Shown here: positions 1,829-33,929 of the stretch, in pieces
How the letters are laid out: each line of letters opens with the position of its first letter
Position numbering within the stretch: position 1 is the stretch's first letter
Assembly (NCBI GenBank): GCA_021815205.1
Contig: JAKAHD010000002.1
Coordinates: 1-45,537, forward strand
From: a bacterium
GTDB lineage: Bacteria; Patescibacteriota; Minisyncoccia; UBA6257; GWB1-50-10
Reading direction: 5' to 3'
Length of the DNA: 45,537 nucleotides
Notes under the pieces: generated by a model
Database searches by the model: none
Seen by the model: the letters and a program-made list of their open reading frames with translations, nothing else
Told to the model about the DNA's origin: nothing
Position numbers and translations under genes: made by a program

Positions 1829-3466
1829 ATGTTCGTAGATGAAATAAAGAACATTATTCGGGGCGATGTGCTCACGGATGAGACAACGCTCAACACCTAC
1901 TCGAGCGATTACTCAATCTTCAAGGTGAAGCCGCGGGTCGTGGTGTTCCCGAAGGATACGGTGGACGTCGAGAAACTCGTCGCGTATGCCGTAGAGAAAA
2001 AGAAAAACGGCGAGGACATCTCGCTCACGGGCCGCTCGGCGGGCACGGATATGTCGGGGGGGCCGTTGAACGACTCGGTGATCGTCGAGTTCGTAAAGTA
2101 TTTCAATCATGTGCGGGAGATAGGGGAGGATTACGCCGTTGTTGAACCCGGCGTCTACTTCCGTGATTTCGAAAAAGAACTCGATAAAAAAGGACTGCTC
2201 TACCCGCCGTACCCCGCCTCGAAGGATCTTTGTGCGCTCGGGGGTATGGTGAATAATAACTCGGGCGGGGAAAAAACTTTGGAATATGGAAAAACGGAGC
2301 AGTATCTCGAGGAGGTGCATATCGTGCTCGCGGACGGGAAGGAGCATATAGTAAGGCCGCTCTCCAGTGGTGCTCTGGAGATAAAGCTCAAGGAACAGGG
2401 TTTTGAGGGGGATATATATAGGAAACTCTATAAACTTATCGAGGATAACTACGATGCGATTCAAGCGGCAAAGCCGAAGGTATCGAAGAACTCTGCCGGG
2501 TATTTTTTATGGAACGTATGGGATAGGAAGACGTTTGATATTACGAAGGTGATCGTGGGTTCGCAGGGAACACTCGGGCTTCTTACCGCGGCGAAGCTCC
2601 GCCTTGTGAAGAAGAAAAAACACTCCGCGCTTGCGGTGATTTTTTCAAAAGATTTGAAGTCGGTGCCCGATCTCGTGGACGATCTTCTGAAGTTCCATCC
2701 GGAAAGCATGGAATCATACGATGATAAGACGTTGAAGCTCGCAATAAAATTCCTTCCTTCGCTCCTCAAGCTTATGAAAGGAGGGATAGTGAAACTTTTT
2801 TTCCAATTTATTCCGGAATTCCTTATGGTGATGAAGGGCGGCATGCCGCAGATGGTACTTCTTATATCCTTTACGTCGGACAATAAGGAGGAGCTCCGCA
2901 AGGATATGGAGGAAGTACGTATGGTTGCAAAGAAATATCCTGTTCGGGCGCGCATCATAAAAACGGAAGAAGGCGCGCAGAAGTACTGGGTGATCCGAAG
3001 GCAGAGCTTCGCGCTCCTCCATAGCCATGTGAGGGGCATGTATGCCGCGCCCTTCATTGACGACATCATTGTTGATCCGAAGTACATGCCGGAGCTCCTC
3101 CCGCAGGTAAACGCGATATTAGACAGACACAAGGACAAGTTAATCTACACGATCGCGGGGCACCCGGGAAACGGGAACTTCCATATTATTCCGCTCGTGC
3201 ATTTGGACGACGAGGAGACGCGGAAAATTATTCCCCAGGTGACGGAAGAGGTCTATAAGCTTGTCTTCAAATACGGCGGCTCCATCACCGCGGAGCATAA
3301 CGACGGATTGATCCGCACGCCGTATCTCGAGGAGATGTACGGCCCGAAGATCGCGGAACTTTTCAAGGAGGTGAAAAACATCTTTGATCCCCTGGGTGTT
3401 TTCAACCCGCGGAAGAAAGTGGGAGCCACGCTCGAATATGCGGAGGAACATATGAGGTGGAGGTAG
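1829..3466 (+). CDS. FAD-binding oxidase/dehydrogenase (GlcD / D-lactate dehydrogenase-like)
   Basis: FAD_binding_4-like N-terminus (RPRVVVFPKDTVDVEKLV, GRSAGTDMSGGPL, GGMVNNNSGGEKTLEYGKT, GSQGTLGLLT) and C-terminal HPGNGNFHIIPLV ... FDPLGVFNPRKK. Confidence 0.9.
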   Translation: MFVDEIKNIIRGDVLTDETTLNTYSSDYSIFKVKPRVVVFPKDTVDVEKLVAYAVEKKKNGEDISLTGRSAGTDMSGGPLNDSVIVEFVKYFNHVREIGEDYAVVEPGVYFRDFEKELDKKGLLYPPYPASKDLCALGGMVNNNSGGEKTLEYGKTEQYLEEVHIVLADGKEHIVRPLSSGALEIKLKEQGFEGDIYRKLYKLIEDNYDAIQAAKPKVSKNSAGYFLWNVWDRKTFDITKVIVGSQGTLGLLTAAKLRLVKKKKHSALAVIFSKDLKSVPDLVDDLLKFHPESMESYDDKTLKLAIKFLPSLLKLMKGGIVKLFFQFIPEFLMVMKGGMPQMVLLISFTSDNKEELRKDMEEVRMVAKKYPVRARIIKTEEGAQKYWVIRRQSFALLHSHVRGMYAAPFIDDIIVDPKYMPELLPQVNAILDRHKDKLIYTIAGHPGNGNFHIIPLVHLDDEETRKIIPQVTEEVYKLVFKYGGSITAEHNDGLIRTPYLEEMYGPKIAELFKEVKNIFDPLGVFNPRKKVGATLEYAEEHMRWR

Positions 3467-3532: not shown

Positions 3533-5287
3533 ATGGATACCGAAAAACGAATATGCCAAAACTGCAAACAGGAATTTGTCATCGAACCCGATGATTTTTC
3601 ATTCTATGAGAAAATAAGGGTTCCGCCGCCCACGTGGTGCCCGGAGTGCAGGATGAAGCGGCGGATGGTCTTCAGAAATGAGCGGAAGCTCTTCCACACT
3701 AAAGACGGAATAACAGGCAACTCAATCCTCGCACTTTACCCGCCCGAATCCGGCTACATTATTTATGACGATACGTATTGGTGGGATACAAGTAAATGGG
3801 ATCCGATTTCTTACGGTGTTGATTTTGACGAGAACAGGCCGTTCTTACTTCAATTATTTGAGCTTAATAAACGTGTTCCTAAATATCGCCGTGCCGCTAT
3901 CAATATGGTAAATAGCGAATACTCCGCGAATGCCGCCGATCTCAAGAACTGCTATCTTTTGTTCAATTCGAACTATTCGGAGGACTGTGCTTATGGAAAT
4001 GGCATTGATTACAGCCGCAATTGCTATGATAACTCTCATATTCAAAAATCAGAAAAATGCTATGGTTCTTTTTGGCTCACCGCGTGTTACGAAAGTCATT
4101 TTTCTTCTCAGTGCGAAAATTGCATTTCCGTATGGTTTTCAAAAAATTGCCGCGGTTGCAATAACTGCTTCGGTTGTGTGAATTTAAGAAACAAAAACTA
4201 TTGTTTCTTTAATGAACAGCTTCACAAAGAAGAATACGAACGCAGATTTGCAGAACTTCATCTTGATACGTGGAGCGGTCTCGCGGTCGCGCAAAAAAAA
4301 GCCGACGCCTTTTGGCTTCAGTTCCCCATTAAATATCTGCAAGGCATTCAGAACGCGAACGTGAGTGGTGATTTTATCTCCCACTCAAAGAATGTTTACC
4401 GAGGTTATCTAATCCGTGAATGTGAAGATGTTCGCTATATCCAGTATTCACAAGTTCCCTCAAGTCGTGACTGTATGGACGGAACACTCATCGGCAATCA
4501 TTCGGAGTTGTTGTACGAGACTTCAGTGTGTGGGTGGGGTGGCAGTAATCTGAAGTTTTGTTGGGAGTGTTGGGATGACGTTCGCGATCTGGAATATTGT
4601 ATTTTCTGCGGGCACGGCGCTTCCAATCTTTTCGGCTGTGCTGGTGTTTTGAAACATCAGTACTGCATTTTAAATAAACAATACAGTAAAAATGATTATG
4701 AGTTTCTGAAAAAAAGAATCATCGAGCATATGGATAAACTGCCGTATGTTGATAGAAAAGGAAGGGTGTATAAATACGGAGAATTTTTTCCGCCGGAGTT
4801 CAGCGCATTTGCTTACAACCAGACAATCGCATCGGAGCATTTTCCGCCCACACAGGAAGAGGCCGAAAAGTTGGGAATCCGCTTACAAGAACCAAACCCG
4901 ACTGAATATGAAACGACCATACACGCAAGCGACCTTCCCGATTCAATCAAAGATGCAGCGGATTCGATACTCAAGGAAGTAGTTCGGTGTGAAACGTGTA
5001 AACGTGCTTATCGGATAATTCCAGTCGAGCTGCACTTCTTGCGCCAGATGAATTTGCCTCTTCCTCGGCACTGTATCGACTGCCGTCATTTAGCACGGGT
5101 AAGCAAGCGCAATAAGGCAGTATTTTATGAGCGGCAGTGCTCCTGTGATTATAAGGTCTATAAAAATACTGGTGGTCATATGCACCACCCAACGGGTCGC
5201 TGTTTGAATAGGTTTATTACTAGCTACGCCCCCGACCGACCGGAGATCGTGTACTGCGAACAATGCTACCAGACGGAGGTAGTGTAA
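3533..5287 (+). CDS. Cys-rich protein with N- and C-terminal zinc ribbons (uncharacterised CPR-type family), copy 1
   Basis: N-term CQNCKQEFVIEPDD...CPECRMKRRM; internal repeated C/N/S motifs; C-term CETCKRAYRI...CIDCRHLAR...EIVYCEQCYQTEVV; paralogous to 34335-36113. Confidence 0.85.
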   Translation: MDTEKRICQNCKQEFVIEPDDFSFYEKIRVPPPTWCPECRMKRRMVFRNERKLFHTKDGITGNSILALYPPESGYIIYDDTYWWDTSKWDPISYGVDFDENRPFLLQLFELNKRVPKYRRAAINMVNSEYSANAADLKNCYLLFNSNYSEDCAYGNGIDYSRNCYDNSHIQKSEKCYGSFWLTACYESHFSSQCENCISVWFSKNCRGCNNCFGCVNLRNKNYCFFNEQLHKEEYERRFAELHLDTWSGLAVAQKKADAFWLQFPIKYLQGIQNANVSGDFISHSKNVYRGYLIRECEDVRYIQYSQVPSSRDCMDGTLIGNHSELLYETSVCGWGGSNLKFCWECWDDVRDLEYCIFCGHGASNLFGCAGVLKHQYCILNKQYSKNDYEFLKKRIIEHMDKLPYVDRKGRVYKYGEFFPPEFSAFAYNQTIASEHFPPTQEEAEKLGIRLQEPNPTEYETTIHASDLPDSIKDAADSILKEVVRCETCKRAYRIIPVELHFLRQMNLPLPRHCIDCRHLARVSKRNKAVFYERQCSCDYKVYKNTGGHMHHPTGRCLNRFITSYAPDRPEIVYCEQCYQTEVV

Positions 5288-22171: not shown

Positions 22172-22255
22172 AAAGGGCGTTCGCCCCTTTTGACTTGTGT
22201 GCTCGGTAATGCAAAACACTTCGTGTGTTGCATTCCGCTCGCTGCGCTGCGTCAA
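22172..22255 (+). ncRNA. Candidate structured RNA/leader element, copy 2
   Basis: AAGGGCGTTCGCCCCTTTTGACTTGTGTGCTCGGTAATGCAAAACACTTCGTGTGTTGCATTCCGCTCGCTGCGCTGCGTCAA. Confidence 0.55.
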
Positions 22256-22343
22256 TGATGCATCTGCAATATTCGCTTCACCCGTCGCCCCTATTCTCGC
22301 CGCTTGCGGCGAGGCATTCGGTGGGTGCACAATAATCAGTGCA

Positions 22344-23621
22344 GTGAAGAAAAAAGTAAAAAGAGTTCACTCTGATTTATCCCAAGCGCAGTCGAGGGAG
22401 CGAAGTCGACCCCTCGACAAAACTCGGGGCAAAAGAGTGTTTGTCGGCATGTCCGGCGGAGTCGATTCCTCAGTCGCCGCATATCTTTTGAAGGAACAGG
22501 GCTACGACGTCGTGGGTGTCTTTATTATGGGCTATAACGTCGACGGATGCGCGGAGCGCGATGCGGAGGACGCGCGGCGCGTGGCGGGGTATCTCGACAT
22601 TCCTTTTTATGTGTTTGATTTTGGGAAGGAGTATAAAAAGAAGGTGGTGGAGTATATGATCGACGGATACCGAAAGGGAATCACGCCGAACCCCGACGTG
22701 ATATGCAACAAGGAAATAAAATTCGGATTATTCCTTGAAAAAGCGCGCGAGATGGGCGCGGATTACATCGCAACCGGCCATTATGTAAGGCTACGAAATA
22801 CGAAAAAGTACGAATATACGAAAACGAAAGCGTGGAGTAATTCGTATATTCGTAATCAATTCGTATTTCGTAGTATGTATCAAGCGAAGGACAAGAATAA
22901 AGATCAGTCATACTTCCTCTGGACGCTTACACAAGAGCAACTCAAATACTGTCTCTTTCCGATCGGGGAGTATACGAAACCGAGGGTGAGGGGAATCGCG
23001 AGGAATGCGGGACTTCCGACCGCGGAGAAAAAAGATTCGCAAGGTATTTGTTTTTTAGGACAGGTGTCCATCAAGGATTTCTTGAAGGAATACATCCCCA
23101 CGCACGAAGGAGCGGTCGTGACCGCGGACGGAATGCGGGTGGGAACGCACGAAGGCGCGGAGTTCTACACTATTGGCCAGCGCCACGGTCTGAATTTGGG
23201 AATTAAGAATAAAGAATTAGGGATAACAGGGAAGATGGAAACGAAGGCGCATTATGTGGCGGAAAAAGATGTGAAGCATAATACGATCATGGTGGCGGAA
23301 GGGGATAATAATCCATTGCTTGAAAAGAAGGAGGTTATAATCACGAATGTAAATTTCATAACCGCGACGCCCCACGAGGACGATTTGAAAAGAGGAGTTA
23401 CCGTGTACGCGAGAATCCGCTACCGCCAGCCGCTCGTCGAAGCGACGCTCATTGCCACCGATGGTAAAAAGACGCGTGCGGATAGATATCAGCATCAATC
23501 AGCGTCATCAGCATCAATCAGCGTCAAATTTTCGAAACCGATAAAATTTGTCGCACCGGGCCAGTCCGCGGTGTTTTATTCGAAGAAAGGAAGGGTACTT
23601 GGAGGAGGAGTTATTATCTAA
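22344..23621 (+). CDS. mnmA: tRNA-specific 2-thiouridylase
   Basis: VFVGMSGGVDSSVAAYLLKEQGYDVVGVF, TPNPDVICNKEIKF, DYIATGHYVR, DKNKDQSYFLWTL, KKDSQGICFLG, PGQSAVFY; GTG 22344 start is uncertain. Confidence 0.95.
   Translation: MKKKVKRVHSDLSQAQSRERSRPLDKTRGKRVFVGMSGGVDSSVAAYLLKEQGYDVVGVFIMGYNVDGCAERDAEDARRVAGYLDIPFYVFDFGKEYKKKVVEYMIDGYRKGITPNPDVICNKEIKFGLFLEKAREMGADYIATGHYVRLRNTKKYEYTKTKAWSNSYIRNQFVFRSMYQAKDKNKDQSYFLWTLTQEQLKYCLFPIGEYTKPRVRGIARNAGLPTAEKKDSQGICFLGQVSIKDFLKEYIPTHEGAVVTADGMRVGTHEGAEFYTIGQRHGLNLGIKNKELGITGKMETKAHYVAEKDVKHNTIMVAEGDNNPLLEKKEVIITNVNFITATPHEDDLKRGVTVYARIRYRQPLVEATLIATDGKKTRADRYQHQSASSASISVKFSKPIKFVAPGQSAVFYSKKGRVLGGGVII
22791..22873. repeat. In-frame nested inverted repeat inside mnmA
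   Basis: CTACGAAATACGAA/TTCGTATTTCGTAG and TACGAATATACGAA/TTCGTATATTCGTA, all within the open mnmA frame. Confidence 0.95.
23488..23525. repeat. Tandem 19-bp direct repeat (x2) inside mnmA
   Basis: ATCAGCATCAATCAGCGTC repeated exactly. Confidence 0.95.
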
Positions 23622-31337: not shown

Positions 31338-33929
31338 ATGCAACGCAATAAAAAACTTATTCTCAAATTCGAGGAGATCACCATAAAGGACGTGCCGCTC
31401 GTGGGAGGAAAGAACGCTTCCCTTGGGGAAATGATCCGCTATCTTGCGCCGCAGGGGGTGAGGATTCCAAGCGGATTCGTAGTGACCGCCGCAGCATACC
31501 GCTCCTTCTTAAAAAAATCCCGAATTCCGAATCCCGAATTCCAAATAAATCCAAAATCCAAGAAAATAAAGAAGAAGATAACGCTGGAGAGTTTTATTAA
31601 AACCACTCTTAAGGGACTTGATACGAAAGATCTGAAGAATCTTGCGGAACGGGGGAGATTGGTGCGGGAAACGATAAAAAAGACGGAGCTTCCTAGCGAT
31701 CTGAAACGCGCAATCGCGAACGGGTATGCCAACCTCGAAAAGCGGTACGGCAAAAATGCCGATGTCGCGGTGCGTTCTTCGGCAACCGCGGAAGACTTGC
31801 CCGGCGCAAGTTTTGCGGGAGAGCACGACACCTATCTGAATATGCGGGGCGTTGATGAAGTAATCGAAGCGGTGCGCGCCGCGATGGCTTCGCTTTTCAC
31901 CGATCGCGCGATTTCATACCGCGTCGATAAGAAGTTTGATCATTTGAAAGTCGCGCTTTCCGTGGGAGTGCAGAAAATGGTGCGGTCCGACAAAGGCGCC
32001 TCGGGTGTGATGTTTACCGTGGACACCGAATCCGGGTTCCGTGATCTCGTGATCATAAACGGTTCGTGGGGACTTGGGGAGATGATCGTGCAGGGAGAAG
32101 TAACCCCCGACGAGTTCCTTGTTTTCAAAAAGAATTTAGAGATCAGCATACATCAGCCTCATCAGCATACATCAGTGTTGCATCCAATAATCAGCAAAAA
32201 GCTCGGAGTAAAAAACAGAAAGATGATTTACTCCGAGGGACGCGGCATTAAAACAACGAAGATCATAACTACAAACGAGAGGGAGAAAGATACTTTCGTG
32301 CTTTCGGAAAAAGAAGCGTTGCATCTTGCGGAGTGGGGGGCGCTCATAGAGAAACATTACTCAGAAAAGAATAAGAAATGGACCCCGATGGATATCGAAT
32401 GGGCGAAAGATGGGAAGAACGGCGAGCTGTATATCGTTCAGGCTCGCCCCGAAACCGTGCAGGCGGGAAAGGATTTTTCGAAAATCAAGGAATATAACCG
32501 GAAAGAGAACGGGAAGATTCTCGTACGGGGTGCGTCCGTGGGATCGAATATTGCGAGCGGGAAAGCCCGTGTAATACTCGATGCAAAACGCATTAAGGAG
32601 TTCAAGACGGGAGAGGTGCTCGTGACGACGATGACCGACCCCGACTGGGAGCCGATTATGAAGATCGCCTCGGCGATCGTGACGGACAAGGGCGGCCGCA
32701 CCTCCCACGCCGCAATCGTTTCGCGCGAGTTGGGGATTCCTTGTGTAGTGGGCACGGAGAACGCGACAAGGATCATACGGACGGGGCAGGAGGTTACCGT
32801 AGATACGACGGGAAGCGAGGGGTTCGTGTTTGCGGGCACGTTGAAGTTCGAGGTAGTTGAACATGATATAAAAAAGATTCCGAAACCGAAGGTGCATATC
32901 ATGGTGAATATTGCGACTCCCGATTCCGCGTTCGAAAAGTCATTCCTGCCGACAAACGGCGTGGGACTCGCGCGCGAAGAATTCATCATCGCGGGCGATA
33001 TCGGCATTCATCCGAATCTGCTCCTTAATTTTGAAAAAATCAAGAAGAAATTCAAAATTCTCCCCCTGCGGGGGATCTCCCAAAGAGACACAAATTCTAA
33101 ATTACAAACAAATTCCAAATTCAAAATTTCAAAAGACGAAGTAAAACGTTTGGTAAAAAAAGTGGAAGAAAAAATGGGAGGGTGGAAAAGCCCGACGCAA
33201 TTCTATGTCGATAAGTTGGCATACGGGATCGCGAAAATCGGCGCGGCATTCTATCCGAAGCCGGTTATCGTGCGATTTTCCGACTTCAAAACGAACGAAT
33301 ATCGTACGCTTTTGGGCGGCGATCTCTACGAACCCAAGGAGGAGAACCCGATGATCGGATGGCGCGGCGCATCGCGATATTACAACCCGAATTTCGCCGA
33401 TGCCTTCGCGCTCGAGGTAAAGGCAATGAAAAAAGTGCGAAACGAGATGGGGCTCACGAATATCATTCCGATGATCCCGTTCGTGAGGACCCCCGAGGAG
33501 GGGAAGAGGGTGGTGGGTATTATGAAAAAGAACGGGCTCTCGAGGAAAAAGGATGCGACCCTCAAGATATACATGATGTGCGAAATTCCATCGGATGTGC
33601 TCCGCGCGGACGAGTTTCTCGACATCTTCGACGGCATGTCGATCGGCTCGAACGATTTGACCCAGCTTACGGTGGGGATCGACCGCGACGGGAATGAGTC
33701 CGTGCGCGGCATCACGAACGAGAACGACGAGTCGGTGAAGAAATTTATTTCCGAAGTTATTCAGACGTGTAAGAGAAGGAAAAAATACATCGGCATCTGC
33801 GGCCAGGCGCCGTCGGATTACCCCGAGTTTGCCGAATTCCTCTTAAAAGAAGGAATCGACAGCATTTCCCTGAATCCCGATACGGTTATCAAGACCACAA
33901 TTGCGCTTGCGAAAAAACACGGTAAATAG
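31338..33929 (+). CDS. ppsA: Phosphoenolpyruvate synthase
   Basis: VGGKNASLGEMIRYLAPQGVRIPSGFVVTA, AVRSSATAEDLPGASFAGEHDTYLN, TDKGGRTSHAAIVSRELGIPCVVGT, SIGSNDLTQLTVGIDRD, CGQAPSDYPEFAEFL. Confidence 0.95.
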   Translation: MQRNKKLILKFEEITIKDVPLVGGKNASLGEMIRYLAPQGVRIPSGFVVTAAAYRSFLKKSRIPNPEFQINPKSKKIKKKITLESFIKTTLKGLDTKDLKNLAERGRLVRETIKKTELPSDLKRAIANGYANLEKRYGKNADVAVRSSATAEDLPGASFAGEHDTYLNMRGVDEVIEAVRAAMASLFTDRAISYRVDKKFDHLKVALSVGVQKMVRSDKGASGVMFTVDTESGFRDLVIINGSWGLGEMIVQGEVTPDEFLVFKKNLEISIHQPHQHTSVLHPIISKKLGVKNRKMIYSEGRGIKTTKIITTNEREKDTFVLSEKEALHLAEWGALIEKHYSEKNKKWTPMDIEWAKDGKNGELYIVQARPETVQAGKDFSKIKEYNRKENGKILVRGASVGSNIASGKARVILDAKRIKEFKTGEVLVTTMTDPDWEPIMKIASAIVTDKGGRTSHAAIVSRELGIPCVVGTENATRIIRTGQEVTVDTTGSEGFVFAGTLKFEVVEHDIKKIPKPKVHIMVNIATPDSAFEKSFLPTNGVGLAREEFIIAGDIGIHPNLLLNFEKIKKKFKILPLRGISQRDTNSKLQTNSKFKISKDEVKRLVKKVEEKMGGWKSPTQFYVDKLAYGIAKIGAAFYPKPVIVRFSDFKTNEYRTLLGGDLYEPKEENPMIGWRGASRYYNPNFADAFALEVKAMKKVRNEMGLTNIIPMIPFVRTPEEGKRVVGIMKKNGLSRKKDATLKIYMMCEIPSDVLRADEFLDIFDGMSIGSNDLTQLTVGIDRDGNESVRGITNENDESVKKFISEVIQTCKRRKKYIGICGQAPSDYPEFAEFLLKEGIDSISLNPDTVIKTTIALAKKHGK
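32142..32179. repeat. Tandem 19-bp direct repeat (x2) inside ppsA
   Basis: ATCAGCATACATCAGCCTC / ATCAGCATACATCAGTGTT. Confidence 0.93.

Follow-up and report, generated by a model that had tools for sequence, protein, structure and literature searches.

An 83-nt nested palindrome carried in frame within mnmA in the genome of an ultra-small member of the Paceibacteria is, with a probability that we put at roughly 80%, a copy of a non-autonomous dispersed inverted-repeat element, here termed T, which has recently multiplied in that genome and landed in a tolerant loop of the MnmA protein. This reading draws on a dispersed family of copies that is absent from the genus mates, on the intact frame and predicted fold of the protein, and on the recurrence of unrelated hairpin-forming inserts at the same site. 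The window (the whole analyzed stretch of 45,537 nt) is contig 3 of a genome of 735 kb, G000 below. An earlier note on this DNA had proposed that a palindromic element with many intergenic copies is carried here in frame, a proposal that our results support; beyond it, several unrelated palindromic families have invaded this loop in the clade as a whole, and T is usually found immediately ahead of start codons.

The palindrome within mnmA

The palindrome is exact, each of its two nested pairs of 14-nt arms being 100% complementary (Table 1). Folded as single-stranded DNA, the 83-nt unit reaches -25.9 kcal/mol against -8.5 +/- 1.8 in dinucleotide shuffles (z = -9.45), and none of 200 shuffles folds equally well. 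As the earlier note held, it is contained within a single uninterrupted frame (22197-23621) that specifies a complete MnmA, identified by matches to TIGR00420 (E 1e-107) and NF001138 (E 1.6e-118). The peptide that it encodes, LRNTKKYEYTKTKAWSNSYIRNQFVFRS, is situated between GHYVR and KDKNKDQSYF and was correctly described as extra relative to the E. coli protein, the segment corresponding to a gap in both the E. coli and the S. pneumoniae MnmA. Compared with the shortest relatives, the loop is longer by about 19-23 residues net, fewer than the 28 encoded by the element, and T is thus not a clean insertion into a present-day short loop. Read on the sense strand, the element is stop-free in two of its three frames.

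Table 1. Features of the mnmA region in the window
Feature	Positions	Strand	Basis or remark
T-family element (83-nt nested palindrome) in mnmA	22791..22873	+	arm match, fold, genome copies
Outer left arm CTACGAAATACGAA	22791..22804	+	
Inner left arm TACGAATATACGAA	22809..22822	+	
18-nt spacer between inner arms	22823..22840	+	
Inner right arm TTCGTATATTCGTA	22841..22854	+	
Outer right arm TTCGTATTTCGTAG	22860..22873	+	
mnmA (tRNA 2-thiouridine synthase)	22344..23621	+	start likely GTG 22344; frame open from 22197
Predicted-disordered loop codons	22812..22856	+	residues 129-143 of 22428-23618; strands 120-125 and 147-152 either side
Tandem 19-nt repeat, two copies of ATCAGCATCAATCAGCGTC	23488..23525	+	in frame, C-terminal barrel of MnmA

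Modeling of the loop, as the earlier note had suggested, places the insert residues with pLDDT <50 in a predicted beta-hairpin loop of an otherwise normal fold (AlphaFold2, alignment of 36 clade members, mean pLDDT 88.8). The model superimposes on S. pneumoniae TrmU/MnmA (2hma) with a TM score of 0.91 and on the E. coli MnmA-tRNA complexes with scores of 0.88-0.90. A second region with pLDDT <50, residues 348-360 (23469-23507), overlaps the ATCAGCATCAATCAGCGTC tandem repeat. A further in-frame repeat-like insert, a GAATTAAGAATAAAGAATTAGG stretch after GQRHGLNL, is seen at 23200-23232 of mnmA; low-complexity stretches that look repeat-like also occur in a PEP-synthase-like ORF (31338-33929), near 31460 and near 33050 and with ATCAGCATACATCAGCCTC at 32142, and these may be in-frame repeat inserts too.

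T as a dispersed family

The resemblance of the palindrome to intergenic repeats, also claimed earlier, was borne out genome-wide: the 83-nt unit has 124 local matches in G000, with three further full-length relatives (84%) and more than 100 partial ones. The roughly 40 clusters collected share one anatomy, namely a half unit CTACGAAATACGAATTnnnTACGAATATACGAA, a variable spacer (20 to >200 nt in genomic copies other than that in mnmA) which often harbors another repeat, and an inverted half unit. Exact TTCGTANTTCGTA(G) arms occur 55 times, and a reversed control pattern never. Among 42 genomes of the family the only other one rich in these arms is G005, from another genus, with 23; all others have 0-4, and the genus mates G001, G002 and G003 have none. 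Extending the comparison to 244 genomes of the order (the genomes compared being mostly or entirely metagenome assemblies) adds only a few that carry T in numbers, with 19 arms in G076, 15 in G078, 8 in G066 and 7 in G104, and the T sequence in these is the same as in G000. Such a patchy distribution combined with a conserved sequence fits a mobile element.

Within the family, T is present in mnmA only in the two T-rich genomes, G000 and G005, so that the content of the loop tracks the content of the genome; across the order, four genomes have at least 15 arms, and two of these (G076 and G078) have other mnmA inserts. The G000 and G005 insertions are in the same frame and have identical junctions and an AGG codon in common. 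Judged from the sequences they are likely to be independent, because the genus mates of G000 lack T and the flanks of the gene do not point to G005; with the junctions identical, however, a shared ancestry of the two copies or a transferred insert may instead account for both. Transfer of mnmA itself from the G005 lineage is unsupported, as the flanks of the insert match the genus mates at 67-80% and G005 at 65-73%. An internal restart after the palindrome, at the in-frame ATG following GTAG, was likewise rejected, being not conserved in G005.

Most T copies are intercistronic, lying in the gaps between operon genes, and the in-frame exceptions are that in mnmA and, in murD, a half copy which reads LRNMNLVRIYEN and precedes VVLFSPGAASF. 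The G000 stretches around T copies contain 26 "B" ends (TTCGTAATTCGTAG); in 19 of them AGAAATNC comes next, with an ATG that opens at least 80 codons 7-9 nt past the arm. Many of the genes after T, named by reading their protein sequences, have roles in translation, namely rplQ, rpsG, rplB, rpsS, rpsC, rplP, rplX, rplE, rpsH, rplF, rplK, rplI, rplJ and rplL; greA and the gene for HU are further examples. The rplV-rpsC gap measures 139 nt with T in G000, as against 6 nt in G002 and 12 nt in G003, which implies that T entered operon junctions after the split from the genus mates and that its spread is recent. T lies upstream of rplJ and pilC in G026, as it does in G000. In the ribosomal operons of G000 (L095, L101, L105, L272) T ends exactly 8 nt 5' of many ribosomal-protein ATGs, and the conserved AGAAATNC tail looks as if T supplied its own start context. 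G003 (L275:461-603, 2595-2712 and 2904-3044) and G037 (L285) have palindromes of their own flush with start codons (TCCCG...CGGG-ATG), whose arms differ but whose ends are identical in several leaders of ribosomal-protein genes.

The MnmA loop in related genomes

The loop, taken as the segment between GHY and DxxKDQSY, was compared in 39 family genomes and 78 named Paceibacteria loci (Jorgensen-, Lipton-, Harrison-, Wolfe-, Colwell-, Azambacteria and others), and it is a recurrent landing site for unrelated hairpin-forming inserts. Its length in 93 distinct alleles is 11-17 aa in 27, 18-25 in 6 and at least 26 in 60. The inserts of the long loops are mostly unrelated to one another and hairpin-rich: their median hairpin z is -3.0, against -0.4 for control windows of equal length from elsewhere in and around the same mnmA genes (Mann-Whitney p 2e-18), and z falls below -3 in 33/66 long loops versus 9/264 controls. 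Sister species differ in the loop (G012/G013, G006/G009, G036/G037, G027/G030, and G000 versus its genus mates G001 and G002, which have different inserts at this site), and an MnmA tree built without the loop requires that the loop switched between short and long, by gain or loss, at least 23 times and changed its type of insert at least 43 times. The earlier note had named, as the outcome that would speak for ordinary loop evolution, a segment common to all close orthologs as protein without the DNA palindrome; the orthologs do not display this pattern. In a sample of 14 genomes with 1.10 Mb of coding DNA, ORFs contain 21 long perfect inverted repeats, of which mnmA accounts for 7 and tgt, another tRNA-modification gene, for 3; with G000 excluded mnmA holds 6 of 17. 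These counts are descriptive, because most stretches had been selected for containing mnmA, and those of G000 for lying around T copies.

Two further families were delineated among the inserts. The first, V, is a GC-rich palindrome with the core GTCTCCGGGGCGACGCCCAAGTCTTA and copy-specific outer arms, found between genes in G029, G025 and G012 and within mnmA in nine alleles; in the listed mnmA copies an in-frame TAG has become TAC, accompanied by a change at the base with which it pairs in the opposite arm. The second, S, is an undescribed structured element of about 140 nt comprising a closing stem and two hairpins, with compensatory double changes at 39 of its 40 predicted pairs. Over 22 sequences its pairing is 89.7% with 310 double-changed cells, and its covariation is 0.778, compared with 0.20 in shuffled and at most 0.17 in slid alignments. 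A covariance model built from it also locates S beyond mnmA, both in intergenic DNA and within tgt, and in G000 itself. Within mnmA, S is present in 15 alleles, always on the sense strand, and the 14 with readable phase use all three reading frames, which argues strongly for repeated insertion at the DNA level rather than inheritance as protein. The mnmA inserts, S included, have no match in Rfam at E values up to 1 (15 loci). In tgt, S is sense in G002 (L125:13330-13474) and antisense in G029 (L237:10848-10989); it also directly flanks mnmA between genes (L075, L192, L186, L162, L191), on both sides in a Colwellbacteria genome.

Many other mnmA inserts are AT-rich inverted repeats built of repeated 6-8-nt words. 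Comparison of the inserts of other genomes by BLAST with 40-180 kb samples of their own DNA recovered dispersed copies only for the G004 family, and the second match of the G039 insert was its own reverse complement. Recent dispersal is accordingly documented for T, S, V and the G004 family but not for every insert, since most AT-rich ones have no copies in these samples. A short palindrome encoding HSNILKNVRM is found in frame twice in the mnmA of G039, in that of G022 and in another gene of G012 (L251:14652-14750, L231:4810, L246:18181).

Origin and persistence of the insert

In the scenario that we favor, T would have multiplied recently, chiefly in the gaps between operon genes and perhaps by way of a single-stranded hairpin intermediate, and one copy would have landed in the MnmA loop between GHYVR and KDxNKDQSYF, to be translated there. 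This copy would have survived thanks to a short, length-compatible and stop-free sequence and to its place in a beta-hairpin loop at the surface, where extra residues are tolerated. The added peptide would be neutral, and the pairing of the arms would be upheld by the needs of mobility or by template switching, which has been argued to maintain the arms of other coding palindromes (PMC6649704), rather than by any benefit to MnmA. In related lineages the same loop would repeatedly gain, lose and swap other palindromic elements.

One close parallel is with the Rickettsia palindromic elements, which are reported to occur both between genes and in frame within protein genes with functional products (Ogata 2000, 2002, as cited in PMC6649704 and PMC3733652). 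Like them, T is an in-frame palindromic insert in an intact protein gene, with the same sequence family also present between genes. The comparison, already drawn in the earlier note, holds as an analogy across phyla, with no claim of sequence homology, whereas membership of T among those elements finds no support. In contrast to the Rickettsia elements, several unrelated families here meet in a single loop of a single protein, and T is mainly positioned at operon junctions beside start codons. In layout T resembles REPINs, doublets of inverted conserved REP units with a variable spacer that form hairpins, reach tens of copies and are mostly extragenic (PMC3116915; PMC3733652): T too is a high-copy, spaced, inverted doublet of a conserved unit, mostly extragenic with some copies in genes. 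However, no RAYT gene has T at its flanks, and the GTAG/CTAC at the ends of T pair with each other instead of forming the unpaired tag of GTAG-tagged REPs. Y1_Tnp domains were detected in 21 of the 42 family genomes, and G000 has two adjacent tandem Y1 (RAYT-like) transposase genes (L090:3087-3857 and 3854-4567), with no T copy within the surrounding 8 kb; the T-rich G005 gave no match to Y1 transposases. Mobilization of T by a RAYT/REPIN system was therefore rejected. T is most likely a non-autonomous, hairpin-borne mobile element with a REPIN-like layout, an analogy taken from PMC3116915.

A different reading, which we regard as unlikely, is that the loop constitutes a clade-wide docking site where the nucleic-acid hairpin and not the peptide is kept, with unrelated mobile palindromes, namely T, V, the three-way-junction element S and lineage-specific AT-rich ones, being swapped over the evolution of the Paceibacteria either because a hairpin is useful or because hairpin-borne elements home there. 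In a related reading, to which we give slightly less credence, the hairpin would be useful in the mnmA message, by slowing ribosomes for folding, protecting the mRNA or mediating self-regulation, and unrelated palindromes would have been recruited or kept for it. Unrelated sequences at this one site indeed have only their hairpin potential in common, S retains 89.7% of its pairs (covariation 0.778 vs 0.20) even within coding sequence, and the V copies avoid the in-frame TAG through paired changes on both arms, so that the hairpin may have some function in the mRNA. Yet an insert is missing from 27 of the 93 alleles, some of them sisters of alleles that have one (G012/G013, G006/G009, G027/G030), about half of the long loops are devoid of a strong hairpin, and S pairs equally well in its intergenic copies and in tgt, where its orientation can be antisense.

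It is also conceivable, if rather improbable, that the palindromes arose in place through template switching at quasi-palindromes and tandem duplication of words, with no mobile insertion. This mechanism has been discussed for coding palindromes (PMC6649704), and it agrees with the variation of arms between copies that nevertheless pair within each copy, as well as with the many AT-rich inserts whose repeated 6-8-nt words are not found elsewhere in the sampled DNA. It cannot, however, generate the termini and inner arms of T common to about 40 places in G000 and to other families of the order, and S and V have conserved cores. The coding palindromes of Nematomorpha mitochondria, perfect inverted repeats in translated genes (PMC6649704), resemble the T insert in that the identity of the arms appears to be maintained, but there both arms encode conserved protein, while the MnmA insert is extra, variable loop sequence.

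We consider it very improbable that translational bypassing skips the insert or that it is cut out of the RNA, for which there is precedent in the byp elements of Magnusiomyces mitochondria, untranslated palindromic inserts in genes according to the account cited in PMC6649704. The mnmA inserts resemble these as hairpin elements within genes of important function; unlike the byp elements, however, all complete mnmA alleles examined are open and in frame through the insert, none being frame-broken, and the loss of the in-frame TAG from V copies would be irrelevant were the insert skipped. Given these open frames, the insert is most likely translated. Ordinary evolution of a long loop with codons palindromic by chance is scarcely credible, for although this loop varies throughout the bacteria and is structurally tolerant, such an origin is contradicted by a fold z of -9.45, by near-identical DNA at many intergenic places and by the unrelated peptides that S encodes in three frames with the same DNA structure.

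In the literature searched we found no description of palindromic or REP elements in CPR bacteria. To our knowledge, in-frame palindromic invaders have until now been regarded as a peculiarity of Rickettsia; they are now seen in ultra-small Paceibacteria, where several unrelated families concentrate in a single loop of MnmA, an important tRNA-modifying enzyme. The novelty lies in this combination of CPR/Paceibacteria hosts, several families, a single loop and the use of three reading frames by one structured element. The structured S and the start-codon-adjacent T are new families to be explained in genomes thought to be streamlined, and the MnmA loop offers a natural experiment, replicated many times over, in how proteins gain sequence from mobile DNA and in what renders a site permissive.
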